Below, in pieces: positions 10,953 to 26,302 of a DNA stretch of 33,453 nucleotides. The stretch comes from an uncultured Bacteroidales bacterium. Its GTDB lineage: Bacteria > Bacteroidota > Bacteroidia > Bacteroidales > Bacteroidaceae. Under the pieces are notes generated by a model. That model made no database searches. It worked only from the letters and a program-made list of their open reading frames with translations, and was not told where the DNA came from. Position 1 is the first letter of the stretch. Each line of letters starts with the position of its first letter. Location of the stretch: NCBI GenBank assembly GCA_902760965.1, contig CACWIN010000030.1, forward strand, positions 1-33,453. Direction: 5' to 3'. The translations under genes and the position numbers were made by a program.

Positions 10953-10953
10953 A

Positions 10954-11051
10954 GGGGCACAAAGGGGACGGTTCTTTTTGTGCCCCTAAAATAAGGCCAT
11001 TGGGGACAGACCTTGATAAATCACAGGGGCACAAAAAGAACCGTCCCCTTT
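10954..11051. repeat. Palindromic REP-like element, copy 1 (malQ-ffh junction)
   Basis: Exact 26-bp inverted arms occupy 10961-10986 and 11026-11051; each contains the core GGGGACGGTTC and ends in TTTTTGTGCCCC or its complement. A second, shorter hairpin is possible within the left side: GGGGCACAAA (10954-10963) can pair with TTTGTGCCCC (10977-10986). The centre includes GGCCATTGGGGAC (10995-11007), the same 13-mer found in copies 2 and 3. The element starts two bases after the malQ stop codon and ends one base before the ffh ATG. Its form matches BIME/REP elements rather than an IS. Confidence 0.85.
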
Positions 11052-11052
11052 C

Positions 11053-12381
11053 ATGTTTGAAAATCTGTCAGAAAGACTTGAAAGGTCACTAAAGATACTC
11101 AAGGGTGAAGGAAAAATCACCGAGGTCAACGTTGCCGAAACCCTAAAAGACGTACGCAAAGCCCTCCTTGATGCCGATGTAAACTACAAGGTCGCCAAGC
11201 AGTTCACCGATACCGTAAAGGAGAAGGCCCTGGGCATGAACGTGCTCACATCGGTCCGCCCCGGCCAGCTGATGGTCAAGGTGGTGCACGATGAACTTGC
11301 CACGCTCATGGGCGGCCAGGCCGTTGACATTGACATAAAGGGTCATCCCGCAGTCATTCTGATGGCCGGTCTGCAAGGTTCCGGTAAGACTACTTTCAGC
11401 GCCAAGCTTGCCAACCTGCTCAAGACCAAACGCGCCAAGAAGCCTCTGCTTGCAGCCTGTGACGTTTACCGTCCAGCTGCCATAGACCAGTTAAAGGTAC
11501 TTGGTGAGCAGATTGGAGTTACAGTATATACAGAGGAGGGCAACAACAAGCCCGTAGAGATAGCACAGAACGCCATAAAAGAGGCCCGCGCCAAAGGTTA
11601 TGACGTAGTTATCATAGATACCGCCGGCCGTCTTGCCATTGACGAGATGATGATGCAGGAGATAACCGCCATAAAGGAGGCAGTATCACCCAACGAAATC
11701 CTGTTTGTGGTCGATGCCATGACCGGTCAGGATGCAGTCAACACCGCACGCGAGTTCAACGAACGTCTGGACTTTAGCGGAGTTATCCTTACCAAACTGG
11801 ACGGTGACACACGCGGTGGTGCCGCACTCTCCATACGCACTGTTGTAAGCAAGCCCATAAAGTTTGTAGGCACAGGCGAAAAGATGGATGCATTCGATGT
11901 ATTCCACCCCGACCGCATGGCCGACCGAATCTTAGGCATGGGCGACATTGTATCGTTCGTGGAGCGTGCCCAGGAAAACTTTGATGCAGAACAAGCCAAA
12001 CGCCTCCAAAAGAAAATGGGTAAAGGCAAGTTTGACTTTAACGATTTTCTGGAGCAGATTGGACAGATCAAAAAGATGGGCAACATGAAAGACCTGATGG
12101 GCATGATACCCGGTGTAGGCAAAGCCCTCAAGGATATAGATATTGATGACAATGCTTTCAAGGGCATTGAGGCAATGATACACTCCATGACCCCCCAGGA
12201 GCGCAGCAACCCTGAGTTGCTTGACAAGAGCCAGTCCCGACGCAACCGTATTGCCAAAGGAAGCGGTGTTCCACTGCAGGAGGTCAACCGTATGCTCAAG
12301 CAGTTTGAACAGACCCGTAAGATGATGAAAACCGTTGCCGGTGCCAAACTGCCCAACCTGGGTTCAATGATGAGAAGATAA
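11053..12381 (+). CDS. ffh: Signal recognition particle protein Ffh (SRP54)
   Basis: 442 residues with the full N-G-M layout: the N domain (residues 1-90); the G domain with GLQGSGKTT near 110, [16 protein letters not shown] near 190, and [10 protein letters not shown] near 250; and the methionine-rich M domain (about 300-440) with the SRP-RNA-binding [13 protein letters not shown]. It binds signal peptides and 4.5S RNA at the ribosome and docks with FtsY. The ATG at 11053 gives the canonical [10 protein letters not shown] start. That start lies one base after the palindromic repeat, so the leader of the mRNA is repeat sequence. I see no TAnnTTTG box in 10950-11052, so transcription probably reads through from malQ or from an unseen promoter. 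Followed by folD after 13 bases. Confidence 0.97.
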
Positions 12382-12394
12382 ATACATTCAACAT

Positions 12395-13276
12395 ATGCAG
12401 TTAATAGACGGAAAGGCTGTTGCCGAACAGGTAAAACAGGAAATTGCAGCCCAGGTGGCCGCAATGGTAGAGAGAGGTGAGAAACGCCCCCATCTGGCCG
12501 CCATTCTGGTAGGTCATGACGGTGGTTCAGAGACATACGTGGCAGCCAAGGTAAAGGCATGCGAGGTTTGCGGATTCAAGTCCACACTGATCCGCTACGA
12601 GAGCGACATAACAGAGGATACTCTGCTGGCCAAGGTTGCCGAACTCAACAATGATCCCGATGTTGACGGATTCATAGTTCAGCTCCCCCTGCCCAAGCAT
12701 ATAAATGAGCAGCACGTTATTGAAGCCATTGACTACCGCAAGGATGTGGACGGTTTCCATCCCATCAACGTAGGCCGTATGAGCATAGGTCTGCCCTGTT
12801 TCATATCGGCCACACCCAACGGCATAATGGAACTGCTCAAACGCTACAACATTGAGACCCGCGGCAAGAAAGCCGTCGTACTGGGCCGCAGTAACATAGT
12901 AGGCAAGCCCATGGCCAGCCTTTTGATGCAAAAGTCCAACCCCGGTGACTGCACCGTGACAGTTTGCCACAGCCACACCGCAAACATCAAGGAGGAGTGC
13001 CTCCAGGCCGATATCATCGTGGCAGCCCTTGGTCAGCCTGGATTCGTAAAGGCCGATATGGTCAAGGAGGGCGCCGTAATCATTGACGTAGGCACTACCC
13101 GCGTGCCCGATGCCACCAAGAAGAGCGGCTTCCGCCTGAGCGGTGACGTCCAGTTTGATGAGGTTGCTCCCAAGTGCAGTTTCATCACCCCTGTTCCCGG
13201 CGGCGTAGGTCCCATGACCATCTGCTCGCTTATGAAGAACACCCTACTTGCTGGCCAGAAAGCAATCTACAAGTAA
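12395..13276 (+). CDS. folD: Bifunctional methylenetetrahydrofolate dehydrogenase/cyclohydrolase
   Basis: 293 residues. The YVAAK motif carries the catalytic lysine (YxxxK) near residue 52; [11 protein letters not shown], the NADP-binding [11 protein letters not shown] near 170, and [10 protein letters not shown] near 265 are diagnostic. The enzyme interconverts 5,10-methylene-THF and 10-formyl-THF in the cytoplasm, supplying one-carbon units to purine and formyl-Met synthesis. It sits between ffh (13-base gap) and the CapA-like gene (6-base gap), so the three are likely one transcript. Confidence 0.97.
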
Positions 13277-13282
13277 ACCGCG

Positions 13283-14248
13283 ATGGCTCGTGCTGCCAGG
13301 TTTACCACTCTGATCGGGGCGCTGTTTGTATGCAACGTTTGTGCATTGGCCCAGACCATAGACAGTATCTCCATCTACTTTGCTGGAGACATAATGCAGC
13401 ATGAGGCCCAGCTTAAAGCCGCTCTCCGTGCAGACGGCACATATGATTATACCGGCTGTTTCACCCAGGTCACCCCTGAGATTGAGGATGCCGATATTGC
13501 TGTATGCAACTTTGAGACCACTCTGGGCGGCGCCCCCTACTCCGGATACCCCCAGTTCTGCTCACCCGATGAGCTTGCAGCAGCCGTGCGTGATGCAGGT
13601 TTTGACATATTCCTGACCGCCAACAACCACTGCCTGGACCGCCGCACCCGCGGTCTTGTACGCACTCTGGATGTGCTGGACAGTCTGGGCATACCGCATC
13701 TGGGCACATACCGTGACCTGGCCGAGCGCGACTCACTTTACCCCTATATCATTGAGCGGAACTCCATGCGCATAGCACTGCTCAACTACACCTACGCCAC
13801 CAACGGCATTCCCGTGGCAGCCCCCTGCATAGTCAATTACATAGACACCACACAAATCAAGGCCGATGTCATCCGCGCCCGCCAGCTTAAGGCAGACTGC
13901 ATCATAGCCTGCATGCACTGGGGCACCGAGTACCGGCTGGAGCCTGACAAATCACAGAAAACGCTTGAGGAGTGGCTCTACAGCATAGGTGTAGACCATA
14001 TCATTGGAGGTCATCCCCATGTAGTGCAGCCTATCCGAACACTGCCGCACCGTTACCATGCCGGCAGCAGTCTTACGGTATGGTCACTGGGTAACTACAT
14101 ATCAAACATGAGCGCCCCGCACACCTTTCAGGGGCTTGCCGTAACCACACATCTCATCAAGATAGGAAACATAACCAAACTGCGCGGTTACGATATTCAT
14201 CCTAACCGCACAATCCGTCCTGGTTTTATTGTGGTGCCCGGCAGGTGA
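13283..14248 (+). CDS. CapA family (PGA_cap) metallophosphatase-like secreted protein
   Basis: 321 residues with a signal peptide (RFTTLIGALFVCNVCALAQT). The mature part shows the CapA calcineurin-like pattern in order: FAGDIMQHEAQL near residue 32, ADIAVCNFETTLGG near 72, TANNHCLDR near 112, HWGTEY near 210, GGHPHVVQP near 235 and SLGNYISN near 265. The Asp/His/Asn residues in these motifs are the expected metal ligands. In Bacillus CapA belongs to poly-gamma-glutamate capsule export, but no CapB/CapC genes are here and in Bacteroidetes the substrate is unknown. It is the last gene after ffh and folD. Its stop codon directly abuts that of the convergent outer-membrane gene, with no base between. 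Confidence 0.88.
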   Translation: MARAARFTTLIGALFVCNVCALAQTIDSISIYFAGDIMQHEAQLKAALRADGTYDYTGCFTQVTPEIEDADIAVCNFETTLGGAPYSGYPQFCSPDELAAAVRDAGFDIFLTANNHCLDRRTRGLVRTLDVLDSLGIPHLGTYRDLAERDSLYPYIIERNSMRIALLNYTYATNGIPVAAPCIVNYIDTTQIKADVIRARQLKADCIIACMHWGTEYRLEPDKSQKTLEEWLYSIGVDHIIGGHPHVVQPIRTLPHRYHAGSSLTVWSLGNYISNMSAPHTFQGLAVTTHLIKIGNITKLRGYDIHPNRTIRPGFIVVPGR

Positions 14249-17200
14249 TCAGAACGTAATTCCTGATACGAACTGTATCGTGGCCTGTCCCACACGGTCA
14301 ATCATATCGCCCATAGAATCCTTGTTATAGCTGTATCTCAGGCCGATTTTTGATGTTCCTGTCAAATAAAGGAACTTTTCCAGACGGAACAACACCTCAA
14401 CGCCTGTACTCAGCAAATGGTCAGACCTACCGGGCTTGCTGGCAAAGGTAAAGTCAACAAAGGGGTTCACCTCCATGTTCCTTACATAGAAACACTGCCC
14501 TATCGCAAAATCCATCGGGAACAGCGGAAACACGTAATCGGCAGTTATGTGATAGGTGTCAATATAATCAAGCTTTATCTGCGTCCAGGCATTAGTGTTG
14601 TAATACCCGCGTGGAGTCATGTCAAACATATCAAACGCCCAAACATCGGCCTTGGTGGAGCTCTGTCTCATATGCTTTTTCTGCATGCCGGCACTGAGCG
14701 CGATGCCATGAGTGGACATAAAACCGGGCAGATAGCCATACATCATTGCATATAATGAGTTGGCGAATGAATTCATAGAATACTGCAAGCCGCCACCTAT
14801 ACCCCATTTAGGAATGATGCATGACGGAGCTGCGTCCAGCCTTATATCTGCAGACAAGCCGGCAATTATACGGGTTGTGGGATAGAGACCGGAGTTGACA
14901 GGCTCGTTGGGGGAATATGATTCATTATCATGATCATAATTGATTAAACGGTATTCGGCTGCAACCAGATCCGTGCTTGTCTGTATGCCTACAAACGGCT
15001 GCACGCTCCTGTTCCATCCGCCCGATGAGAAATTAAAAGGAACAGAGACGCTCACACGTCCTCCCATAAAGATACCGGCGTCCTGGGATTTCTGGCTAAT
15101 CAGTTTATAGTTGTCCTCTTTATAATCATTCTTATTGATGTAACCCCAGAATGTATCGGCCGAGTATCTCTTACCCATATCAAAAGCCACGTCAAACACC
15201 GGATAGAGACCGCTATAATTCATCTTGAGATGCAGTCCCGGCAGATAATGCGTTGAGGTCTGTTTCTCTTTGTCGATTGTTTGGAACGGGTCACTGGTAA
15301 CAGAGAACGCCAGGCTACCGGTCAGTGTGGTAGGCATGTTCTGGAAATAGGCCGTAAAGCCCAGAGATGATGTCTCAGCAGGAAGATATGACTCCGATCC
15401 TACCATGACGCCTTCCTGGTTAATATATAGCGGTATCCATGAATGTATCATGAGTCCGTCCATTCCGGAATGCTTCTGGGGCGTACCATGTTCAGTCAAT
15501 ACCGGGAAACGCTCAATGCCGCTCTCCTGTTTTGACAGGAATTCGGCTATGGGATAGGTGTAACGGTCACCGTAATCAACACTACGGCCCAATGGTTCTT
15601 GTACCGTTGCCGGCATTCTGCCATCAGGGGTCAATGCGGTGAAACAGAGTTTGTCATCCTTGAAGAATGCACTTGACACACCGTATTTGGTATTGGTCTG
15701 CTGTCTTACACCCTCTGCATGCGAGTATGAGTATATCTCATCGGTACCGTTCCTATCGGAGGTGAAATAGACGGCATCGGCATGTGATATCAGACCACGG
15801 GTCAGCAATACGGCCGGCTCCACCAGAACCTTCACATTGTCAAAATCTGTGGAATAAAGGCCTGTACCATTATCACCCATTGCAGTGAATACCACCTCAT
15901 CGGCCAGGAATGCCACCTCTTTGGCATTTGTACCGTCAAGAGGACGGATGGAACGGACTACATGGCCGTCATTCATATCCAGGATAACCACACTGCTTGT
16001 TCCGTCCTCAAAGAGCTGTACAGCGGCCAGGGTCTTGCCATCGGCCGACACAGCAGGGCTGACAAAGAAGCCATCCTTAGTAAGGTCCTGTATGCTTTTT
16101 GAACCCACCTTAAGCTGTCTGACACGTGAAATTCCGTACATACCCCAACGGGTATCTATCAGAGATTCAGACCAATAAATACAGTTTGTAGCGGCTGAGT
16201 AGGCAAGTTTGCTGGCTGCATTGAAATACCTCACGTGGTTTTCCTTACCGTCGGGGAGTATCTCCACCAGTTCCATAGTCTTATCCATATCCGAACGCAC
16301 TGCCATCAGTCGGCCGTCGGCAGTCTGTACCAGACTCTTGTAATTGGGAAAGAACCTGGAGTTGTCTGCCACAAGCCTCTCCACATTCTGGAACGGACCG
16401 CGTACCTTGTCATCCTCAGTCCAAATGGTCTTGAAAGCATCGGCAATCTGTATCCATGAATTGTTGATGCCGGTATGTGAGTAATCAAGGAGAGTCTTTT
16501 CAAAAGCATGGAAACTGAATATACGGGTGCTTCTTGACAGGTAGTTCTTAGTAAAGTCCCATCTATTTGACAGATATCTGGTTCCCGCCACAGTCATATA
16601 ACCTATCTTGTAATAATCCGGGGTATAATAACGCTGTGAGCCATATCTCCAACGGAACCAGTTACGGTAATCATTCCTGTCCAGTGCCATACGGTAATAC
16701 TCCAGGAAACTGGCAGTACGTCCACGACCGCCATCGGTCAGCGCAGTCTCCATAACCACTGCATCACCCTCCATGATTGCGGCATTGGCATACAAACGGC
16801 ACACGTAATATGACAAGCCCTCACCGAACAGAACCTTAGGCCAATCCCACGAGCCGTCTCTTGAGAACTGGAACTGGGCCGCGTGACGCCCCTCATGAAT
16901 AGCCAGCATCTTGTCAAACGGGATGTTGAAGAGTCTGCCGTAAGGATCTCCCATCGTAAAAAGCTCCAGTCGGCTTGGCGCAATATCTGCAACACCGTTC
17001 CCATCAGGATAACGCGTATGCAACACTACAGGCAGTGGGGCACTCATCAATTGGCCCGGATAGTATCCGGCCGATGCGCCCAACAGACGGTAATAGGTCT
17101 CAAAAGCATCCGCATATCTCATGCCAAGGCTGTCCAGCCCCTTTGGATATATTATGCTGTACTTGGTTGTCGTAATCTGTGACCAGCCTGATAATGACTT

Positions 17201-17311
17201 CTCACCTGATAAGGCTAAGAATTGAGAATAAACCGGAATGGATAATGCAAACAATCCGAAAGCTGTAACTACACGCTTATGAAAAATGGTTTTGATATTG
17301 GTTAGAAACAT
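14249..17311 (-). CDS. Large outer-membrane protein: HEXXH metallopeptidase-like domain, beta-propeller, C-terminal barrel
   Basis: 1020 residues from the ATG at 17311 (the frame is open to 17362, but the signal peptide KRVVTAFGLFALSIPVYSQ fits the inner start). After the signal, residues about 40-290 resemble the peptidase MA superfamily: HEGRH at 139-143 fits HEXXH, and E164 in FGEGLSYYV could be the third zinc ligand. Residues about 320-560 carry repeated TolB/WD40-like blades (VSADGKTLAAVQ, YFTSDRNGTDEIYSY). The last ~400 residues are a predicted outer-membrane beta-barrel ending in Phe (FVSGITF). No known name recognised. Plausibly a surface or periplasmic peptidase tethered to its own barrel; this is inference from architecture. 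Convergent with capA, and divergent from the GH9 gene with a short shared upstream region. Confidence 0.8.
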   Translation of the reverse strand: MFLTNIKTIFHKRVVTAFGLFALSIPVYSQFLALSGEKSLSGWSQITTTKYSIIYPKGLDSLGMRYADAFETYYRLLGASAGYYPGQLMSAPLPVVLHTRYPDGNGVADIAPSRLELFTMGDPYGRLFNIPFDKMLAIHEGRHAAQFQFSRDGSWDWPKVLFGEGLSYYVCRLYANAAIMEGDAVVMETALTDGGRGRTASFLEYYRMALDRNDYRNWFRWRYGSQRYYTPDYYKIGYMTVAGTRYLSNRWDFTKNYLSRSTRIFSFHAFEKTLLDYSHTGINNSWIQIADAFKTIWTEDDKVRGPFQNVERLVADNSRFFPNYKSLVQTADGRLMAVRSDMDKTMELVEILPDGKENHVRYFNAASKLAYSAATNCIYWSESLIDTRWGMYGISRVRQLKVGSKSIQDLTKDGFFVSPAVSADGKTLAAVQLFEDGTSSVVILDMNDGHVVRSIRPLDGTNAKEVAFLADEVVFTAMGDNGTGLYSTDFDNVKVLVEPAVLLTRGLISHADAVYFTSDRNGTDEIYSYSHAEGVRQQTNTKYGVSSAFFKDDKLCFTALTPDGRMPATVQEPLGRSVDYGDRYTYPIAEFLSKQESGIERFPVLTEHGTPQKHSGMDGLMIHSWIPLYINQEGVMVGSESYLPAETSSLGFTAYFQNMPTTLTGSLAFSVTSDPFQTIDKEKQTSTHYLPGLHLKMNYSGLYPVFDVAFDMGKRYSADTFWGYINKNDYKEDNYKLISQKSQDAGIFMGGRVSVSVPFNFSSGGWNRSVQPFVGIQTSTDLVAAEYRLINYDHDNESYSPNEPVNSGLYPTTRIIAGLSADIRLDAAPSCIIPKWGIGGGLQYSMNSFANSLYAMMYGYLPGFMSTHGIALSAGMQKKHMRQSSTKADVWAFDMFDMTPRGYYNTNAWTQIKLDYIDTYHITADYVFPLFPMDFAIGQCFYVRNMEVNPFVDFTFASKPGRSDHLLSTGVEVLFRLEKFLYLTGTSKIGLRYSYNKDSMGDMIDRVGQATIQFVSGITF

Positions 17312-17392
17312 ATGAAATAAAGTTTTCTGCAAAAATCGCACTAATATCTGTAATAACGGCACTCCTGATGGGGAAAATTAGGATTTGAATCT

Positions 17393-17400
17393 TATCTTTG
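17393..17400 (+). promoter_or_regulatory. -7 box for the GH9-symporter-channel operon
   Basis: TATCTTTG, an exact TAnnTTTG match, lies 17 bases before the ATG at 17418. This argues against the TTG at 17385, which would lie upstream of the transcription start. Confidence 0.65.
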
Positions 17401-17417
17401 TACCATTTATAATCATT

Positions 17418-19514: not shown

Positions 19515-20884
19515 ACGAGATTGTTTCAAGCATAAATAAGATTGTCTGGAACCCGGGACTGGTGGTACTGCTGCTGGGAGCGGGACTGTTTTTCTCCATC
19601 TGCACACGCATGGTTCAGGTACGGCGGTTAGGACTGATGGTGCGTTCTCTTTTTGGCAAAAAGCATGGGACTGATGGCATATCATCATTTCAGGCGTTCT
19701 GCATTGCACTGTCCGGCAGGGTTGGAACCGGCAACATTGTCGGTGTAGCCACAGCCATTGCATTCGGTGGCCCGGGAGCAGTGTTCTGGATGTGGGTGGT
19801 GGCATTCTTCGGCGCATCAACCGCCTTTGTGGAGTCCACGCTGTCACAGATGTACAAGTTCCGTCATGCCAGCGGATTCCGCGGCGGCCCATTCTGTCTG
19901 TTTGAGGCTGGTCTGGGTAAGCGTTGGCTGGGAGTGCTGTTTGCGGTGATAACCATCGTGGCTTGTGGCGTATGCCTTACCATGGTTCAGGCCAACGGCG
20001 CATCCACAACCATGAACAACGCATTCCCCGTTTCCACTCTGACATCGGGCATAACCCTGGCCATACTTTTGGGCATCGTCATAATAGGAGGTGTAAAAAG
20101 AATAGCAACAGTTGCATCAATCATTACGCCGTTCATGGCTTTCGGTTACATAATTCTGTCGGTCATTGTGGTGGGATTCCATATCCATGATGTTCCGGCT
20201 GTTCTTGGCAGCATCTTCACTAACGCATTCGGTATCAATCCGATAGCAGGCGGAATAATAGGCTCCACCATATCCATGGGCGTAAAGCGTGGCATATTCT
20301 CCAATGAGGCCGGACAGGGAACCGGAGCAATCGTTTCTGCCGCAGCCGATGTCAAGTCACCTGCGCAACAGGGCTTGGCACAATCGTTCTCAGTATATGT
20401 GGATACGCTGTTTGTATGTACGGCAACGGCTCTGATGATACTCACATCGGGCACCTACAACATAATAGATGCCGATGGAAACATGCTGATTGCAAACGCC
20501 CCGGAACTGGGCAACAACTATGCCGCATTCACACAGAGCGCTGTGGATACGGTGTTTGCGGGATTCGGCAGCCAGTTTGTATCGGTCGCAATGATATTCT
20601 TTACCTACAGCACAATCATGGCCTACTATTTCTATGCGGAATCCAGCATAATCTACCTTTTCAGGGACAAGAATCCCAAGCGTGAGAAGCTGGTTATACG
20701 CATATTCCAGGTTGTAATCCTTACATCGGTAATATATGGCGCCGTACGAGAGGCCGATGTGGTCTGGCAGGTGGGAGATATTGGCGTAGGGCTAATGGCG
20801 TGGGGAACGCTGATTTCAATCATACTGCTTTTCCCTAAAGCCATCCGCGCACTAAAAGACTATGAGAAGGAAATTGAAAAGTGA
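19511..20884 (+). CDS. Alanine/glycine:cation symporter (AGCS) family protein
   Basis: 457 residues with about 11 membrane segments. The start is a GTG at 19511 overlapping the GH9 stop (GTGA). Family motifs seen: FFSICTRMVQVRRLG near residue 30, ALSGRVGTGNIVGVATAIAFGGPGAVFWMW near 66-95 (key residues G, GTGN, GGPG), and GVKRGIFSNEAGQGTGA near 257. These proteins import alanine or glycine with sodium or protons across the inner membrane. Close to family length throughout, with no sign of damage. Its coupling to a GH9 gene and a K+ channel gene is unexpected functionally and may just reflect chromosome packing. Confidence 0.93.
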   Translation: MNEIVSSINKIVWNPGLVVLLLGAGLFFSICTRMVQVRRLGLMVRSLFGKKHGTDGISSFQAFCIALSGRVGTGNIVGVATAIAFGGPGAVFWMWVVAFFGASTAFVESTLSQMYKFRHASGFRGGPFCLFEAGLGKRWLGVLFAVITIVACGVCLTMVQANGASTTMNNAFPVSTLTSGITLAILLGIVIIGGVKRIATVASIITPFMAFGYIILSVIVVGFHIHDVPAVLGSIFTNAFGINPIAGGIIGSTISMGVKRGIFSNEAGQGTGAIVSAAADVKSPAQQGLAQSFSVYVDTLFVCTATALMILTSGTYNIIDADGNMLIANAPELGNNYAAFTQSAVDTVFAGFGSQFVSVAMIFFTYSTIMAYYFYAESSIIYLFRDKNPKREKLVIRIFQVVILTSVIYGAVREADVVWQVGDIGVGLMAWGTLISIILLFPKAIRALKDYEKEIEK

Positions 20885-21753
20885 AAATGAAAAAGCTGAT
20901 AGATATAATTAAGGACAAAGAGAGACTGTACAGGATACTGTTTGAGGGAACCGATCCACTTTCAAAGCCCGTTGACATAGTCATAATGATTGCCATCGGA
21001 CTATGTGTAATCATAGCCTCGCTGGAAAGTGTACTTAAGGTTGATGATTACTCTTTCCAGACACTCATTCACATGGAGCTGACCGGTGCAGGAATCTTTA
21101 AGACTGCAATCATTGTCCTTGAGTACGTTCTGAGCATACTTTTCGCCATTGAGTATGTGCTCAGAGTCTATTGCTCACCCGTAAAACGCGAGTATGTACT
21201 CAGTTTCTTCGGCATAATTGATTTGTTGGCCACATGGCCCCAGCTGCTCAGCATATTCTTCCCGCCGCTAAGGTATCTGGCCATCATGCGAACCTTCCGC
21301 CTGTTCCGCATTTTCCGCGTACTCAAGCTGTTCGCGTTCCTGAATGAGGGCTACCTGCTGCTGGAGAGCATACGCAAGAGCCTTACCAAGATCCTGGTCT
21401 ATTTCATGTTCGTGGTAGTGCTGGTATGCATCCTTGGAACCATAATGTATATAGTGGAGAGCGGGACTCCCAACTCCGGATTCACCAGCATCCCCACCAG
21501 CATCTATTGGGCCATAGTGACACTTACAACCGTAGGTTACGGTGATATAACGCCTGTAACCGCGCTGGGCAAGTTCCTGTCGGGAATAATCATGATCCTG
21601 GGTTACACCATCATAGCCGTGCCCACCGGTATCGTATCGGCCACCATGATAGATACCACCAAGAAGAAAGGTAAAGACGGCCGATGCCCCCGCTGCAACG
21701 AGAAGACGGACCTTAACGCAAACTACTGCAAACACTGCGGCGAACGCTTATAA
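20881..21753 (+). CDS. Voltage-gated potassium channel with C-terminal zinc ribbon
   Basis: 290 residues starting at GTG 20881 (GTGA overlap with the symporter stop); ATG 20887 is an alternative two codons later. Six membrane segments are predicted. S4 carries arginines every third residue (R137, R140, R143, R146 in RTFRLFRIFRVLK). The pore has the potassium selectivity filter TVGYGD at 217-222. After S6 a short linker leads to a rubredoxin-like zinc ribbon: C269-x2-C272 and C283-x2-C286. The first three features place it in the ion transporter/Kv family in the inner membrane. The zinc ribbon replaces the usual cytoplasmic regulatory domain and might assist tetramer assembly or binding of a partner (inference). 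Confidence 0.93.
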   Translation: MKMKKLIDIIKDKERLYRILFEGTDPLSKPVDIVIMIAIGLCVIIASLESVLKVDDYSFQTLIHMELTGAGIFKTAIIVLEYVLSILFAIEYVLRVYCSPVKREYVLSFFGIIDLLATWPQLLSIFFPPLRYLAIMRTFRLFRIFRVLKLFAFLNEGYLLLESIRKSLTKILVYFMFVVVLVCILGTIMYIVESGTPNSGFTSIPTSIYWAIVTLTTVGYGDITPVTALGKFLSGIIMILGYTIIAVPTGIVSATMIDTTKKKGKDGRCPRCNEKTDLNANYCKHCGERL

Positions 21754-21767
21754 ACGCACGTACAGCG

Positions 21768-21845
21768 TATTGGGGCGAAGCGAGTATGCGAGCGAGAGCG
21801 GCCGGGTAGGCCGCCCTTTCGCGTTAGCGAAATAAAAAAAGGTCC
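21768..21845. other. GC-rich hairpin-forming intergenic stretch of unknown role
   Basis: Two perfect hairpins follow the channel gene: GCGGCC-GGGTA-GGCCGC (21798-21814) and TTTCGC-GTTA-GCGAAA (21817-21832), preceded by repeated GCGAG/GCGAA motifs (21774-21798) and followed by TAAAAAAA. The base composition is unlike the surrounding genes. Neither hairpin has a downstream T run on the plus strand. Possibly a remnant of a repeat element or part of the 3' untranslated region. Confidence 0.5.
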
Positions 21846-21921
21846 CGAGTCCCACCGGGCACCCCAAAAGAAAAAGAGGCCGAATGACCTCTTTTTCTTT
21901 TGGGGTGCCCGGTGGGACTCG
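21846..21921. repeat. Perfect 34-bp inverted repeat containing the tRNA-His 3' end
   Basis: Arms 21846-21879 and 21888-21921 are exact reverse complements around an 8-base loop, CCGAATGA. The right arm comprises the last 21 bases of the tRNA-His gene (3' half of the T-arm, acceptor strand, CCA) plus half of the terminator stem; the left arm is its mirror copy. Just outside the left arm (21841-21845, GGTCC) the match to the T-arm degrades. Confidence 0.9.
21866..21901. terminator. Bidirectional terminator between channel gene and tRNA-His
   Basis: The stem AGAGG/CCTCT with loop CCGAATGA is extended by an A-rich left arm (AAAAGAAA...) and a T-rich right arm (...TTTCTTTT). Because the arms are complementary, both strands read a GC stem followed by a T-rich tract. 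It serves the plus-strand channel gene and the minus-strand tRNA. It forms the core of the larger palindrome. Confidence 0.75.
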
Positions 21922-21978
21922 AACCCACGACATTCAGAACCACAATCTGACGCTCTAACCAACTGAACTACGGGCACC
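21901..21978 (-). tRNA. tRNA-His (anticodon GTG), CCA encoded
   Basis: On the minus strand a full cloverleaf is readable. G-1 plus GTGCCCG at the 5' end pair with CGGGCAC plus C73. The D-arm has AGTTGGTTAGAG, the anticodon stem TCAGA/TCTGA encloses the loop TTGTGGT with anticodon GTG, and the T-arm is GTGGG-TTCGAGT-CCCAC. The additional G-1:C73 pair is the identity element of bacterial tRNA-His. The CCA is genome-encoded (21901-21903). tRNA-His(GUG) is one of four tRNAs modified with queuosine at position 34, the pathway served by genes at 24929-26113. Confidence 0.97.
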
Positions 21979-22005
21979 ATATACCGCTTTTCTGTTAAAG
22001 CGGTG

Positions 22006-22035
22006 CAAAGTTAGCAATTATTCGCAACAATGCAA
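22006..22035 (-). promoter_or_regulatory. Promoter of tRNA-His
   Basis: Minus-strand -7 box TAACTTTG (22006-22013) with a -33 TTG (22033-22035) exactly 19 bases upstream, the classic Bacteroidetes spacing. The predicted start is about 20 bases before the mature tRNA. An 8-bp hairpin ACCGCTTT-TCTGTT-AAAGCGGT (21983-22004) lies between promoter and tRNA and would be in or at the start of the leader. Confidence 0.65.
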
Positions 22036-22045
22036 TACAATTCAC

Positions 22046-23365
22046 TTAATTTTTAGATTTATAAACCGGTCTGATGCATAAGCCATAAACACGGCGTGTA
22101 GTTCCTGTCCCCTTATAGAGATAGGTACTGCTCTCATCCATATTGATACACAAAGAGTAAGCCTCAAACGCATCGACAGCCGACATAGTTGAAGTCCAGA
22201 AAAAACCATATTTACTATATGGAATGTTCTGAGAGTAGTTGTTGTTCTTTAAAGTTTCGGAAGTCAATGAGAATGGCATAAACAAACGCCTGTCGCTATA
22301 ATCTTCATTCTTTGGAACAAATACAAAACCCTCTTTTCCTGATACCACACTGTAAAGGACATGGCAATTGTCAAACAGTTCGTTAACCTGAACCTTTGAC
22401 GGAGTTTTCCAATCCTCACCAAAAATGACCGATGCAGGATCATCCTCAGGAAGCATCTCAGTTATCTGATCATCAACATATTTTGTCAGTTCAAGACTGT
22501 TCTTGTCATAATAAATGTAGTTCTCCAAAGAATAAGAATCCTTTGCGGTGGTTTCGGCCCAGGCAAAACGCTGGCCGTCCTGATCGGGAGTAGCAGCACC
22601 AAGATTGGTGTATGCCCACATAGTACCGCTTGGAAGACCCATATCAACAACATTTATAAGACTGTCGCCAAGACCTGTCTTTTGGACCACACCCGGTTGC
22701 AGGTATTCTGTCGTAAATTCCTTAGGAATTCGTTTCATCTTTACAGACTGCCTGTCCTTGTCATCGGAATAATAGAAATTTATATAGCTTGCATGTACTG
22801 ATGTTATTACCAGCTTTTTGTCAATCTGGCCTACAGGTGAATTCTTGTAGGTGACAGAAAGACGCATGCCGTCAAACGACCAGCCAAAGAATCTTTCATC
22901 ATTCTCATAGCCGTTTTCATCAAAACCAAAGAAATATGTATCCTGGGTATTGTCGATATTCCATAATCCGTACAGAACCTCTTTTTTAAACATGCACACG
23001 TTAACTCTGCATTTTGCCACAAATGTGCCGCATATAAAACTGATATAGCATGAGCCTACCCCCTGGGCGGTTACAAGACCGTTTTCATCAACAACTGCAA
23101 CCTTGGAGTTATCGGACCTCCAGAATATCATATCTTTAATGGTACTATCGGCCGATATGGCCTCCTGGATTGTTTCATTGAACGGAAGCAATGATGGTTT
23201 GAGCGATATTGTTTCGCCCGGAATAAGATCCGCATGAGTTACGTCCAACAAAACTCCCTCTATTACTTTCTGGATAGATTCATTATCTTTCTTTTCGCAT
23301 GATAACAACAGCAACACGGATAAGGCAAAAATGGCCGCTTTTGAAAAAGAACTTGCAAGTTTCAT
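22046..23365 (-). CDS. Lipoprotein with BIG2 Ig-like domain and FISUMP-like C-terminal domain
   Basis: 439 residues from the ATG at 23365 (open to 23542, but the lipoprotein signal MKLASSFSKAAIFALSVLLLLSC begins there; lipobox LLSC; long motif quoted by its key boundary). Residues about 40-130 are a BIG2 bacterial Ig-like domain (SDNSKVAVVDENGLVTAQGVG). A middle segment (130-240) contains WNIDNTQDTYFFGFDENG, resembling lipocalin-like sheets. The C-terminal half resembles the Fibrobacter-type paralogous (FISUMP) domain: VDMGLPSGTMWAYTNLGA, RFAWAETT, DWKTPSKVQVNELF and a final CIRPVY. Likely anchored in the outer membrane and possibly surface-exposed; function unknown. Divergent from the DUF3298 lipoprotein. 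Confidence 0.85.
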   Translation of the reverse strand: MKLASSFSKAAIFALSVLLLLSCEKKDNESIQKVIEGVLLDVTHADLIPGETISLKPSLLPFNETIQEAISADSTIKDMIFWRSDNSKVAVVDENGLVTAQGVGSCYISFICGTFVAKCRVNVCMFKKEVLYGLWNIDNTQDTYFFGFDENGYENDERFFGWSFDGMRLSVTYKNSPVGQIDKKLVITSVHASYINFYYSDDKDRQSVKMKRIPKEFTTEYLQPGVVQKTGLGDSLINVVDMGLPSGTMWAYTNLGAATPDQDGQRFAWAETTAKDSYSLENYIYYDKNSLELTKYVDDQITEMLPEDDPASVIFGEDWKTPSKVQVNELFDNCHVLYSVVSGKEGFVFVPKNEDYSDRRLFMPFSLTSETLKNNNYSQNIPYSKYGFFWTSTMSAVDAFEAYSLCINMDESSTYLYKGTGTTRRVYGLCIRPVYKSKN

Positions 23366-23394
23366 ATATTTAATCAGTTGACGGTTAGTGACTG

Positions 23395-23402
23395 CAAATA
23401 TA
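23395..23402 (-). promoter_or_regulatory. -7 box for the BIG2 lipoprotein gene
   Basis: Minus-strand TATATTTG, exact TAnnTTTG match, 30 bases upstream of the ATG at 23365. Confidence 0.55.
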
Positions 23403-23446
23403 ATGCAAGCGTGTAATTCAAGCGAACTTATTACCGAACTATTTTG

Positions 23447-23454
23447 TACTTTCG
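23447..23454 (+). promoter_or_regulatory. Probable -7 box for the DUF3298 lipoprotein gene
   Basis: TACTTTCG, one mismatch from TAnnTTTG, 18 bases before the ATG at 23472. Its position explains why the upstream in-frame ATG at 23388 is not used. Confidence 0.5.
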
Positions 23455-23471
23455 CAAAAAAGTTGAACAAT

Positions 23472-24251
23472 ATGAAATTATCCAGGTTTATAGTCCTTGT
23501 ATCATTACTGGCGCTATATGCATGCAGTGAAAAAGGAGACAAGTACGCTTTTCAGTATCTTACGTTCAAACAGGATATTCCGTTCACTCAAGATAAAGAA
23601 AAGCCTTCGTGCAATATTGACCTTAAAGTCTTAAGGGCATATGGCACCGACACGATGTTCGCCCAGGCATTCAACCGGGATATATCCCAGTTCCTTTTCG
23701 GTCATAATACCACCAACGTCCAAAAAGCCATGGTTCTATATGTTGATTCCATCATAAAGGTGTTCAAGCAGGAAAACCAGGAACAGGTTGATTTTGCACT
23801 TCAGGAAGGATATGAGCCGCATGGACTTGATTACGAGTACATTATTAACACCGAAGTCCATTACGGCAACAACAAGGATATTATCGGCCATTTTATAAAT
23901 ATGTATCAGTATTCAGGCGGCGCACATGGAGGCACATTCATTACATGCCGGAACTATCGCCTTAAGGATGGCAGTGTGGTAACGCTTGACAACTATTTCA
24001 AGCCCGATTACGAAAAGGTTCTCATTCCAATTCTGGAGCGCAAGTTGCTTGAGTATGCAGGTTGCAACAGCCGGGATGAGCTTGACGAGTACGGATATTT
24101 CAGCAACGATCCCATGTTTGTATCGGACAACTTTGAAATCCGGCAGGACACCATTGATTTTATTTACAACCAATACGATATTGCGCCCTACTCCACGGGC
24201 ATCACTACCCTCTCGGTTCCCCTTAATGAGATTGAAAATTTGATCAAATAG
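23472..24251 (+). CDS. DUF3298/RsiV-like lipoprotein
   Basis: 259 residues from the ATG at 23472. The signal peptide ends in a lipobox (ALYACSEK), so it is a lipoprotein. The central segment has YSGGAHG and NYRLKDGSVVTLDNYF, and the C-terminus FIYNQYDIAPYSTGITTLSVPL is the DUF3298 hallmark (about residues 229-250, key residues FxYNxYxIAPYSxG). The family includes the extracellular part of the anti-sigma factor RsiV, but no sigma factor gene or membrane helix is present here, so a free-standing periplasmic or outer-membrane role is more likely. The stop codon (24249-24251) touches the first base of palindrome copy 2, and the gene overlaps the convergent editing-protein gene by 8 bases. Confidence 0.85.
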   Translation: MKLSRFIVLVSLLALYACSEKGDKYAFQYLTFKQDIPFTQDKEKPSCNIDLKVLRAYGTDTMFAQAFNRDISQFLFGHNTTNVQKAMVLYVDSIIKVFKQENQEQVDFALQEGYEPHGLDYEYIINTEVHYGNNKDIIGHFINMYQYSGGAHGGTFITCRNYRLKDGSVVTLDNYFKPDYEKVLIPILERKLLEYAGCNSRDELDEYGYFSNDPMFVSDNFEIRQDTIDFIYNQYDIAPYSTGITTLSVPLNEIENLIK

Positions 24252-24894
24252 GGCCATTGGGGACGGTTCCGTTTGGCTCATTTGTTAAAAACGAGCCAAA
24301 CGGAACCGTCCCCAATGGTATCCATTCAATCTCACCACCCCAAATTTCCAGGAAACGGAGGAATGCGGCGTTCGATACCACAACGCTGGCGGTGTTTTCG
24401 CAGGGATGGAATGATATGCGTTCGGCGGTCTTGAGTTCTGCGTCAAGGAAATATTTTACGCGATGGCCGTTGTCAAACAGTTCTTTAGGATTCACGCCCT
24501 CTTTTACCCAGCCAAAATCGCGTGTACCATCGGCCGATATAATTGCGGGGTGCTCCACCAGATTCATGTCGTTAATCAGGCCGTATGCACATACTGAACC
24601 AGGTGTTACGCCGATGCATCGGTCCATACGTTCGGGACTGGCAAAGCTGAGCTTACCCTGCCTTACGATATGCTCCAGCCCGTGAATATCCAGATTCTTG
24701 TGGCACTCAAAACTGGCCATATAGTGGCGATTGCCCTTGTGATTTCGGAAAAACAGGTTCTTGCAGTGGGTTGAGTCAATGTTCTTCCAATAGGCCAGCG
24801 CCTCCTCAATGGTAGGCAACGGCGGATGATAGTGCACCTGGTACTCTATCCCGTGCTCCTCTAACCATCCCAATACAAATTCAGTCTTAGTCAT
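24244..24894 (-). CDS. ProXp-ala/PrdX-type prolyl-tRNA editing protein with a repeat-encoded C-terminal tail
   Basis: 216 residues. The YbaK/ProX editing fold covers about residues 1-190: YHPPLPTIEEAL, NLFFRNHKGNRHYMASF, LSFASPERMDRCIGVTPGSVCAYGL, FHPCENTASVVVS. Relatives (ProXp-ala) hydrolyse Ala-tRNA-Pro mischarged by ProRS, and some are annotated as 'prolyl-tRNA synthetase associated domain' proteins. The family normally ends near the FLEIWGG motif. Here the frame continues through palindrome copy 2, adding roughly 22-24 residues (PLGTVPFGSF...NEPNGTVPNG). The start codon lies at the edge of palindrome copy 4. Third gene after yhhQ and queF, though the 34-base gap to queF contains the palindrome. 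Confidence 0.88.
   Translation of the reverse strand: MTKTEFVLGWLEEHGIEYQVHYHPPLPTIEEALAYWKNIDSTHCKNLFFRNHKGNRHYMASFECHKNLDIHGLEHIVRQGKLSFASPERMDRCIGVTPGSVCAYGLINDMNLVEHPAIISADGTRDFGWVKEGVNPKELFDNGHRVKYFLDAELKTAERISFHPCENTASVVVSNAAFLRFLEIWGGEIEWIPLGTVPFGSFLTNEPNGTVPNGPI
24254..24318. repeat. Palindromic REP-like element, copy 2 (C-terminus of editing protein)
   Basis: Exact 26-bp inverted arms at 24254-24279 and 24293-24318 around a 13-base loop. Each arm begins CCATTGGGGACGGTTCCG, or its complement. It shares GGCCATTGGGGACGGTTCC with copy 3. It lies between convergent genes but is translated on the minus strand. No T run follows it, so it is not a standard terminator. Confidence 0.9.
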
Positions 24895-24924
24895 GACGCA
24901 AAGGGGTCGTTTCGTTTTGCGTCA
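24894..24924. repeat. Palindromic REP-like element, copy 4 (start of editing protein gene)
   Basis: The stem TGACGCAAA (24894-24902) pairs with TTTGCGTCA (24916-24924) around GGGGTCGTTTCGT. Aligned with the left hairpin of copy 1, the 21-base core CAAAGGGG-A/T-CG-G/T-TTC-T/G-TTTTG matches at 18 positions, and the outer stem bases differ but remain paired. Its first base (24894) is the A of the editing-protein ATG on the minus strand. Confidence 0.75.
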
Positions 24925-24928
24925 CTTT

Positions 24929-25390
24929 TTACTCGTGAGTTGCCATGCGTTGGGTGGCCAAGGCCTCGTACTTGGTGCCCTTGCGGCCGTAGTTGGCGTA
25001 CGGATAGATTGATATGCCGCCGCGCGGAACAAAGAAACCGGTCACCTCAATGTACTTGGGATCCATCAGTTTGATAAGGTCCTTCATAATGCGGTTCACG
25101 CAATCCTCGTGGAATCCGCCGTGATTGCGGAAACTGTGCAGGTACAGTTTGAGTGACTTGCTCTCTACCATCTTGACATCAGGGATATAGCTTATGCGGA
25201 TCTCGGCAAAATCGGGCTGACCGGTTATTGGGCAAAGAGTAGTGAACTCCGGGCAGTTAAAGCGTACCCAGTAGTCATTCTCCTGGTTCAGGTTCTCAAA
25301 TGCCTCCAGCAGGCCGGGGTTATACTGGTTTGAATATACGGTTTTACCGCCAAGGGCAACCAAGCCCTCCTCTTTTCTATTTTCGGACAT
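24929..25390 (-). CDS. queF: NADPH-dependent preQ0 reductase (7-cyano-7-deazaguanine reductase), type I
   Basis: 153 residues, the short unimodular (YkvM-type) form. The active-site cysteine is C53 in [12 protein letters not shown], with D60 and E95 (GGFHEDCVN) as further conserved catalytic residues; [16 protein letters not shown] is the QueF motif. It reduces the nitrile preQ0 to the amine preQ1 in queuosine biosynthesis, in the cytoplasm. It begins 3 bases after the transporter gene, so the two are co-transcribed, and a preQ1-I riboswitch candidate precedes the pair. None of the earlier preQ0 synthesis genes (queC, queD, queE) are in the window. Confidence 0.97.
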
Positions 25391-25393
25391 AAC

Positions 25394-26113
25394 TTATTCT
25401 GTTTTAATCTTAAACGGATTGTACTTAATATCATAGTCAAAGGTGTCAATTCCCTCCTTTGCCTTGAGTTTGCCTGAAATGAGCGCTGTAACAGGGAGGA
25501 TAACCACCTCGTACAGAGTCTTGACTGTAACCTGAGTTACAATTATTGAAAGGATTGTCCTGAAAGGCATAGCCCCCATGAATGCGAGCGGATAAAAGAT
25601 GATGGAGTCCGATAACTCACCAACCACACTCGAGACAACCGCTCTCCAGCCGAATCCCTTACCTTTGGTTGCAATTTTCATTCTGGACAGCACCCACGCG
25701 TTCATGTGTGATCCCAATATGAAAGCCAGCAACGATGCAGCCGTTGTACGCGGAATAAGACCGAACAGATGGTTAAAGCTATCGGCCACAGCTTGGTTCT
25801 CAGGATCGATTGGAGCCGGAAGGATACTTACCAAACCCGCAGCCAGAGCCACAAAAGCACTCATGGCAAAACCCATCCAGATAACCTTCATGGCCTTGCG
25901 GTAACCGTAAACCTCGGTCAGCAGGTCATTGATTATATACGAAATGGGAAAAATGACAACTGCACCTGATAATTGCATCCAGGTGTTACCCACTCGCCAA
26001 AGCCTTGGCACAAAAAGATTTGATGTAATAAGGCAGACACAAAAGGTTACTGCCAACACCACGAACGTGACGGACAGCCCACGCTGCCCCGCAGAATTAG
26101 TTTTTTCGGACAT
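25394..26113 (-). CDS. yhhQ: Queuosine precursor transporter (YhhQ/VUT family, DUF165)
   Basis: 239 residues with about six membrane segments. Family signatures include FPISYIINDLLTEVYGYRKAMKVIW near residue 55-80 (key residues N-D-x-x-T-E-V-Y-G-Y-x-x-A), and SHMNAWVLSRMK, followed by the GELSDSIIFYPLAF helix. YhhQ proteins import preQ0/preQ1 or related 7-deazaguanines across the inner membrane. First gene of the yhhQ-queF(-editing protein) unit. Promoter -7 box at 26177-26184, with a structured leader of about 57 bases containing the candidate preQ1-I aptamer, whose 3' strand ends 5 bases before the ATG. The adjacent queF and this aptamer support a preQ0/preQ1 substrate. Confidence 0.95.
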   Translation of the reverse strand: MSEKTNSAGQRGLSVTFVVLAVTFCVCLITSNLFVPRLWRVGNTWMQLSGAVVIFPISYIINDLLTEVYGYRKAMKVIWMGFAMSAFVALAAGLVSILPAPIDPENQAVADSFNHLFGLIPRTTAASLLAFILGSHMNAWVLSRMKIATKGKGFGWRAVVSSVVGELSDSIIFYPLAFMGAMPFRTILSIIVTQVTVKTLYEVVILPVTALISGKLKAKEGIDTFDYDIKYNPFKIKTE

Positions 26114-26118
26114 TTTTA

Positions 26119-26147
26119 CTTGTTTTTATAGTGGTTCCAAGCACACT
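26119..26147 (-). ncRNA. Candidate preQ1-I riboswitch in the yhhQ-queF leader
   Basis: On the minus strand, 5' to 3': AGUG (P1), U-G (L1), CUUG (P2 5' strand), GAAC (L2), CACU (P1 3' strand), AUAAAAA (L3), CAAG (P2 3' strand). This is the H-type pseudoknot of class I preQ1 aptamers. Compared from memory with the Thermoanaerobacter tengcongensis aptamer, the segment from the first loop U to the ligand-pairing C is the same length; AAC just before P1' and AAAACAAG at the 3' end match. The 3' CAAG is 5 bases from the yhhQ ATG (26113), so binding would plausibly mask the initiation region. P1 is only 4 bp, so I hold back some confidence. Confidence 0.72.
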
Positions 26148-26150
26148 TGC

Positions 26151-26167
26151 AGCGGGCTCACCCCGCT
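26151..26167 (-). other. Leader hairpin upstream of the preQ1-I candidate
   Basis: AGCGGG-GTGAG-CCCGCT on the minus strand, a 6-bp GC-rich hairpin starting near the predicted transcript 5' end (about 26170). It could protect the 5' end or stack on the aptamer. No T run follows it. Confidence 0.55.
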
Positions 26168-26176
26168 ACTCGGCAG

Positions 26177-26184
26177 CAAAGTTA
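26177..26184 (-). promoter_or_regulatory. -7 box for yhhQ-queF
   Basis: Minus-strand TAACTTTG, exact TAnnTTTG match. It ends two bases from palindrome copy 3, so the -33 region lies inside that palindrome and no TTG is found there at usual spacing. Confidence 0.65.
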
Positions 26185-26185
26185 C

Positions 26186-26302
26186 AAAAAAGGGCCATTG
26201 GGGACGGTTCCGTTTGGCCCTTTTTTAACTAAAAACAACAAACTTAGCACTTTCTTCTAAAAAAAACGGGCCAAACGGAACCGTCCCCAATGGCCCTTTT
26301 TT
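26186..26302. repeat. Palindromic REP-like element, copy 3 (between divergent promoters)
   Basis: Exact 35-bp inverted arms at 26186-26220 and 26268-26302, each including AAAAAAGGGCCATTGGGG and GACGGTTCCGTTTGGCCC, or complements. A further six T/A pairs (26221-26226 with the A run before 26267) are interrupted by a single C. The central part (about 26227-26258) is A/T-rich and unlike the other copies. Confidence 0.92.

Follow-up and report, generated by a model that had tools for sequence, protein, structure and literature searches.

What are the palindromes that mark four gene boundaries in a stretch of Bacteroidales DNA, and how did they come to lie there? The window, by which we mean the whole 33,453-nucleotide stretch analyzed, comprises positions 1 to 33,453 (forward strand) of contig CACWIN010000030.1 in assembly GCA_902760965.1 of an uncultured Bacteroidales bacterium. 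An earlier note, made from the letters alone, had assigned the four copies to a single family with the core GGGGWCGKTTC and had suggested an element of the repetitive extragenic palindromic (REP) or bacterial interspersed mosaic element (BIME) type, moved by a REP-associated tyrosine transposase (RAYT). Our analysis indicates that they are probably hairpin repeats of the REP/BIME kind that are mobile but non-autonomous and that owe their spread to RAYT-type single-strand transposases of the HuH (histidine-hydrophobic-histidine) Y1 group, the genes of which have the same repeats in their flanks. The adjoining genes named below are those that we take to be malQ, ffh, and a ybaK-like gene; Pfam matches were obtained for the proteins.

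An abundant repeat flanks Y1 transposase genes

All four palindromes are present in the window, which holds seven exact cores and nine with one mismatch (100 shuffles: mean, 1.87; largest, 7). Six stretches over the four copies folded as single-stranded DNA better than shuffled sequences did (z, −3.6 to −14.6), and the palindromes are thus real. The genome of origin, that of a gut-type Bacteroidales, is a draft of 2.32 Mb in 93 contigs, 81% complete. In it the exact core occurs 224 times (108 + 116), in contrast to a single occurrence of the pattern read backwards. This count answers a check that the earlier note had proposed.

Three Y1_Tnp genes, which we refer to as C23, C13, and C50 (263 to 269 residues), were detected in this genome and none in the window. 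The earlier statement that a RAYT Y1 transposase is not present is therefore correct for the window but not for the genome. Type B inverted pairs (stem GGGGCACAAA) stand on both sides of the C23 gene and downstream of the C13 gene, which has a type A palindrome (arm GCCATT) on its upstream side. At the C50 gene, a CGCG-stem pair lies downstream and only a decayed stretch, recognized by eye, lies upstream. Among the matches listed, at least 23 of the 224 cores fall within approximately 14.5 kb around the C13 gene, less than 1% of the genome.

Five proteins, the three own ones and two from congeners, all matched Pfam Y1_Tnp (PF01797) above the cutoff and scored 52.4 to 68.0 bits against NCBIfam REP_Tyr_transpos (NF047646), below its curated cutoff of 80. 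A structure model of the C23 protein (mean predicted local distance difference test score [pLDDT], 85.5; predicted template modeling score [pTM], 0.66) found its closest PDB match in 4er8, an entry that contains the E. coli REP transposase and a REP hairpin (E value, 4.7e-07), followed by IS200/IS605 transposases; a PDB search by sequence gave no useful match. With 39 loci from congeners, the three own genes made up 42 Y1 loci, 36 of which have an open reading frame (ORF) bearing HuH and Y motifs; the other six were dropped before the tree was built (four without an ORF with both motifs, two without HuH). In these 36 the HuH-Y spacing is always 60 to 61. The F and Q of the FQ motif are invariant (22/22), the Y motif is mostly YIHQNP (YIHLNP in G027a), and full-length genes encode approximately 263 to 290 residues. 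C-terminal helix-turn-helix (HTH) matches are weak and below cutoff.

A strict GGGGWC core was found in the flanks of 34 of the 36 HuH-bearing genes of the genus, and the flanks of G014 and G015b contain only the AGGGACGGTTC variant. Y1/RAYT genes flanked by copies, for which the earlier note had recommended a search, thus exist in the own genome and in congeners. In two congener transposases (L059 and L080), the coding sequence of the terminal KGTVLFG or KGTVPFD tail runs into the neighboring repeat.

The unit combines a fixed loop with a variable stem

Judged from sequence, the unit is a stem of approximately 5 to 10 bp around a 13-nt loop that begins with GGGGWC, and units occur singly or as inverted pairs. 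In a register test, the bases before (X) and after (Y) the core were compared for 323 units with 138 distinct arms, almost all of this genus. With 13 nt between the arms, 54% of the cells were paired, versus 20 to 29% in six slid registers; the 749 paired cells out of 1380 exceeded both the mean (549) and the maximum (595) of the shuffles. A stricter set of 44 arms gave 214 paired cells out of 440 (shuffle mean, 148; maximum, 179), and in the larger set 9 of the 10 stem positions show each of the four Watson-Crick pairs. These results bear out the earlier proposal of a modular build with compensatory stems.

Relatives outside the genus were sought by an alignment search, and the best 80 of 561 loci came from Bacteroidota, many Bacillota, and single Actinobacteria, Atribacteria, and Desulfaltia records. 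Of these 80, 2 lacked an ORF and 7 belonged to the same genus; the other 71 were kept. GGGGWC is present in the flanks of 64 of these, in 176 units with the loop consensus GGGGAC[G/A]GNTCNN. A stem of at least five pairs forms in 67 of the 176 units at loop 13 and in at most 4 at any other loop length from 7 to 18; with shuffled partners, the mean was 4.4 and the maximum was 11. Before the same-genus loci were excluded, the density of GGGGWC was 1.80 per kb near the genes versus 0.42 per kb at 900 to 1900 nt from them.

We tentatively propose that the transposase recognizes the 13-nt loop (GGGGWC plus a clade-specific part) and leaves the stem free as long as it is paired, which would be the opposite of the arrangement in canonical REPs. 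For two group 3 REP transposases, cutting is reported to depend on loop bases (PMC8266576), which by analogy makes loop reading plausible. The mobile system could be the same and its enzyme could instead read stem plus core, with one cognate stem per subclade that changes only with the enzyme. In line with such an arrangement, the GGGGCACAAA stem is found with each of C23, G021c, and G005a, which are nearly identical enzymes, and TGACGC stems stand at all four class b enzymes (core classes are defined below). In the own genome, the three genes are accompanied by three stem types, even if the types on the two sides of C13 differ (A on one, B on the other). We nevertheless regard stem-cognate recognition as rather unlikely: stems vary widely among GGGGACGGTTC units, also across phyla, with a constant loop, and mixed-type arms exist, an example being the left unit that G005 carries between malQ and ffh.

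For the spread of the repeats by RAYT-type transposases, we envisage the following course. A unit would fold into a hairpin when its DNA is single stranded, for example on the lagging-strand template. The transposase would read the loop bases and the hairpin shape, with little constraint on the stem beyond pairing, and would nick near the hairpin foot. The unit or inverted pair would then be moved or copied to a new site, mostly intergenic just behind a stop codon and often near a transposase gene. The strand bound, loop recognition, the cut site, the coupling to replication, copying as opposed to cut-and-paste, and any benefit or cost to the host are those parts of the scheme that we infer.

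Core type follows the transposase tree

Core classes were distinguished as a (GGGGACGGTTC), b (GGGGTCGTTT), c (GGGGWCAGACC), d (GGGGACTGTCC), e (GGGGACAGGYC), and f (GGGGTCAGGCC), plus one GGGGACGGCG. Among the sequences compared, core type follows the transposase tree: on the protein tree, core class required 8 changes versus a shuffled mean of 21.3, and none of 200 shuffles was as low. For class d, clustering did not exceed chance expectation (3 changes, a number that 68 of 500 shuffles matched or undercut).

The counts of classes a, b, c/f, and e were compared across 37 genomes between those in which the matching gene was found and the others. Counts were higher with the matching gene for class a (P = 7e-5), class b (P = 0.004), class c/f (P = 2e-6), and class e (P = 8e-4). 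Class e is the cleanest, with 69, 13, 11, and 5 copies in genomes with the gene and at most 8 in every other genome.

Filled and empty sites in relatives

At orthologous junctions, empty sites in relatives show insertion. An empty counterpart exists for 31 of the 66 clusters in syntenic blocks, and both presence and absence, which the earlier note had proposed to look for, were observed. At the queF/ybaK-like junction, the site of copy 3, the GGGGTCGTTT hairpin is present in the window and in G019, G021, G026, G002, and G012, with a decayed form in G020. The element is absent from this junction in G005, G009, and G029, where both genes overlap, and also in G006, G010, G022, and G036; in G007 and G008, class d hairpins with other stems lie close to the site. 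The malQ/ffh junction is empty in G006, G010, G012, and G017 and holds class a pairs in G005, G008, G011, G015, and G021, several with other stems.

Two further observations concern such sites. In several congeners (loci L108, L113, L114, L115, L118, and L120), the malQ/ffh junction contains another inserted repeat of approximately 200 to 340 bp with ends like CTTTTTGGGGTATCGG. At one orthologous site, the elements of G021 (L161, 15903 to 15958) and G005 (L173, 15799 to 15811) differ in their stems and unit number; replacement, conversion, and repeated insertion are alternative explanations.

At one clean site, where G021 and G019 were compared across flanks with 98 and 96% identity, no target duplication is seen, and an 8-nt target duplication at the queF/ybaK-like site is a single case. 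Target duplication as a rule was rejected: direct repeats of at least 4 were found in 2 of 46 paired own-genome elements (null mean, 1.09), which corresponds to chance. The inverted ends, the intergenic sites, and the size of approximately 60 to 120 bp would suit ordinary miniature inverted-repeat transposable elements (MITEs) of a DDE transposon with terminal inverted repeats. Such an origin is extremely improbable, as target duplication is not regular, the flanked genes are of the Y1 type, and every arm forms a hairpin of its own with a fixed register. At L034 (8205 to 8280) and L039 (9892 to 9967), the outer palindrome continues 8 bases beyond the usual arm into the unique flanks; these extended palindromes, 19 bp in all, occur in 2 of the 46 paired elements.

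Several findings count against spread by RAYT-type enzymes that read the loop, or limit how far such spread can be taken. No movement was seen directly. The core classes were defined post hoc and from the flanks, and near-copies favor any clustering. Many class a cores occur in genomes in which no class a gene was found (G025, 112; G009, 47; G019, 41; G026, 28), and the same is true of class b cores (G026, 62; G006, 43; own genome, 30), although the absence of a matching gene is a weak point because draft genomes are incomplete. Class b counts track the c/f gene (P = 0.00027) more than the class b gene (P = 0.0039), and class a genes also track the b and c/f counts (P = 0.0087 each). Because of these many-copy genomes without the gene and these cross-class associations, the counts support a link between gene and repeat but do not bear out a strict one-to-one specificity. 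Within transposase subclades the stem types are conserved, and the stem may therefore be read too. In class b, pairing equals that of stem shuffles (7.38 versus 7.41); since its stems are uniform, this class gives no covariation information. Outside the genus, a loop-13 unit with a stem of at least five pairs is present in only 40 of the 71 loci, and such stems also form in 23 of 116 units at 900 to 1900 nt from the genes. These distant stemmed units are as expected for a dispersed repeat, yet they do not make a clean negative.

The repeats lie mostly behind genes

Placement was counted in 11 stretches of the own genome with crude ORF calls. Only 4 of 43 clusters lie inside an ORF, though 90% of the sequence is coding. 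The 38 classified clusters comprise 23 between codirectional, 13 between convergent, and 2 between divergent genes, and a core lies within 20 nt of 26 of 49 flanking stops but of only 7 of 27 starts. The earlier note had called the role of such placement undescribed. Di Nocera 2013 (PMC3733652), however, describes REPs as lying predominantly downstream of coding regions. The placement is therefore real but is not new behavior, because compact genomes force proximity and REPs are known behind genes.

Stop triplets were also found at the arm edges. They stand at one fixed outer-edge offset in 20 of 40 own-genome type A arms, and 56 of 99 class c/f arms and 28 of 38 class b arms likewise carry them at the outer edge. 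Outside the genus they are weak, with no offset exceeding 10 of 89, and at neighboring offsets reversed triplets reach equally high counts. As evidence they were discounted, because family history can explain them.

The proximity to stops would also be expected of host regulatory hairpins, such as bidirectional terminators or transcript stabilizers, selected at gene ends and only incidentally linked to the transposase; the A-run and T-run arms of copy 4 resemble a terminator. We consider this very unlikely. A terminator scan was negative at copies 2 to 4, loops of more than 8 nt being outside its model, orthologous junctions in congeners are empty or held by different families, and the number of copies per genome ranges from 0 to 206 within one genus. 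A regulatory origin is thus disfavored, and a regulatory side effect is possible. Among Rfam families, only a tRNA matched.

The four copies in the window

The window contains two core families rather than the single one assumed at first. Copies 1, 2, and 4 are inverted pairs of units with the class a core GGGGACGGTTC, and copy 3 is a single hairpin with the core GGGGTCGTTTC, relatives of which flank their own transposase clade. The stretch that the earlier note had attributed to copies 1 to 3, GGCCATTGGGGAC, is in fact common to copies 1, 2, and 4 (10995, 24252, 26193, and 26283). The placement of all four copies at gene edges held up, as detailed for each copy below.

Copy 1 (10953 to 11051; fold z, −9.3), identified by sequence reading, begins one base past the malQ stop (10952) and ends one base short of the ffh ATG (11053). 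Its left unit consists of X (10954 to 10963), the core (10964 to 10974), and Y (10977 to 10986), and its right unit consists of Y' (11026 to 11035) and a minus-strand core (11038 to 11048), the outer arm being reduced to TTT. The stem of copy 1, GGGGCACAAA, is also seen beside the transposase genes C23 and C13. Between the two GGGGACGGTTC units sits a nested piece, GGCCATTGGGGACAGACC (10995 to 11012, plus strand), with a different core of the class c type, GGGGACAGACC; class c cores flank other transposase genes. At 11049 to 11053, between copy 1 and the ffh start, a promoter box is gone that several relatives keep as TTTTGCTAACTTTG. This could also be an assembly fault.

Copy 2 (24252 to 24318; fold z, −13.1) has the arm GGCCATT and cores at 24259 to 24269 (plus) and 24303 to 24313 (minus), and it follows directly after a TAG at 24249 to 24251. 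On the opposite strand it overlaps the 3' end of the ybaK-like ORF (24244 to 24894, minus strand; Pfam tRNA_edit), the last codons of which run through the repeat. The ybaK-like protein has 26 residues past its aligned part, via copy 2 (24244 to 24317, minus strand), and the ends of its relatives extend 2 to 12 residues past the aligned part in 27 of the 27 relatives listed. Judging by this reading frame, copy 2 changed a protein by giving it a C-terminal tail.

Copy 3 (24894 to 24924, plus strand) consists of TGACGCAAA, the class b core GGGGTCGTTTC (24903 to 24913), and TTTGCGTCA, with a 13-nt loop; the GGCCATT arm and the GGGGACGG core are both missing from it. It directly adjoins the start codon (ATG) that the ybaK-like gene has at 24894 on the minus strand, and the whole hairpin recurs downstream of transposase genes in the congeners G002 and G012. 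Copy 4 (26186 to 26302; fold z, −14.6) has the outer arms AAAAAAGGGCCATT and AATGGCCCTTTTTT and cores at 26200 to 26210 (plus) and 26278 to 26288 (minus), and it adjoins a TATATCTTTG box.

Relation to known systems

Compared with canonical REP, BIME, and REPIN elements and their RAYTs (Nunvar 2010, PMC2817692), the system shares a flanked Y1 gene, inverted pairs, high copy number, intergenic location, and coevolution of repeat and enzyme. Regarding the definition of RAYTs and REPtrons given there, a Y1 protein with HuH and Y motifs is encoded at 36 of the 42 loci, and two abundant inverted palindromes flank the C23 and C13 genes, with C50 clearly flanked downstream only. In contrast to canonical REPs, the GT(A/G)G head or foot is not conserved, and units begin with variable arms. 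Since the conserved sequence is the 13-nt loop and not a GTAG foot, these repeats are not canonical REPs. The earlier classification thus stands for a dispersed REP/BIME-like element and falls for a canonical REP: the system works like a REP/RAYT system by function but is not a canonical REP by membership.

Closest in motif are the TIRYT genes of Di Nocera 2013 (PMC3733652), the repeats of which carry GGGGWSAS and are termed terminal inverted repeats (TIRs). As in TIRs and TIRtrons, there are Y1 genes and moderately repeated inverted repeats with a G4 motif, some of them self-complementary. By the stated motif, GGGGWSAS fits some classes (GGGGWCAG..) but not class a, GGGGACGGTTC, with the main core GGGGACGG; it fits 43 of the 176 units outside the genus, and GGGGWCGG fits 107. 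The 13-nt loop, the matched variable stem, and the more than 200 copies are further differences. The same source describes CGTC REPs, known from Bacteroidetes among others, and the complement of our core contains CGTC. They have an unpaired CGTC end tag, a stem of 8 to 9 bp, and a loop of 4 to 5 nt, and no flanked transposase was found for them; this identity was set aside in view of the 13-nt loop and the flanked transposase.

Quentin 2018 (PMC6006769) reports that automatic and manual searches found no REP-like sequences at subclass 2.1 genes and that subclass 2.6 genes (Bacteroidetes) are flanked by atypical structures with further copies. Subclass 2.1 is described with NHVH or NH[YF]H, with W[EQ] or FQ, and with a HuH-Y spacing of 58 to 67. 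Our genes resemble it in NHVH, FQ, length, a spacing within that range, and an HTH-like C-terminal domain, the HTH matches being weak, but the Y motif expected there is YIELNP or Y[IV]HLNP, in contrast to the prevailing YIHQNP. They share the YIH[QN]NP and NH[LIV]H motifs with subclass 2.6, with few variants, but that subclass has WQ, a spacing of approximately 82, and a length of approximately 179, unlike the FQ, 60 to 61, and approximately 263 to 290 found here. HuH, FQ, spacing, and length thus point to 2.1, but the Y motif points to 2.6. If the genes belong to 2.6, some of the repeats may already be in Table S1 of that paper.

The structure model suggests a fold related to that of the IS200/IS605 transposases, which recognize single-stranded hairpins (PMC8266576). 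The present system differs from them in its repeats, in a longer protein with an HTH-like end, and in that most copies are gene free. No description of the loop rule or of the GGGGACGGTTC repeats was found in the open-licence literature, figures and supplements aside, and a search of PMC8049555 for RAYT groups gave no match. Searches for GTAG-footed hairpins would presumably miss repeats whose conserved sequence lies in a 13-nt loop.

A large RAYT-like branch, subclass 2.1, has been reported without REP-like repeats, and the 13-nt-loop rule would make such repeats findable. The rule links the type of core to the clade of the enzyme, and in other bacterial phyla, too, related transposase genes have hairpins of this design in their flanks. 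Natural enzyme-repeat pairs are thereby at hand for studying how a single-strand nuclease distinguishes its own hairpins. In the own genome, the repeat system accounts for a new protein tail and for altered gene junctions. If loop reading is true, the variable part of the loop would be a natural specificity code that coevolves with the enzyme across several phyla, Bacteroidota and Bacillota among them.

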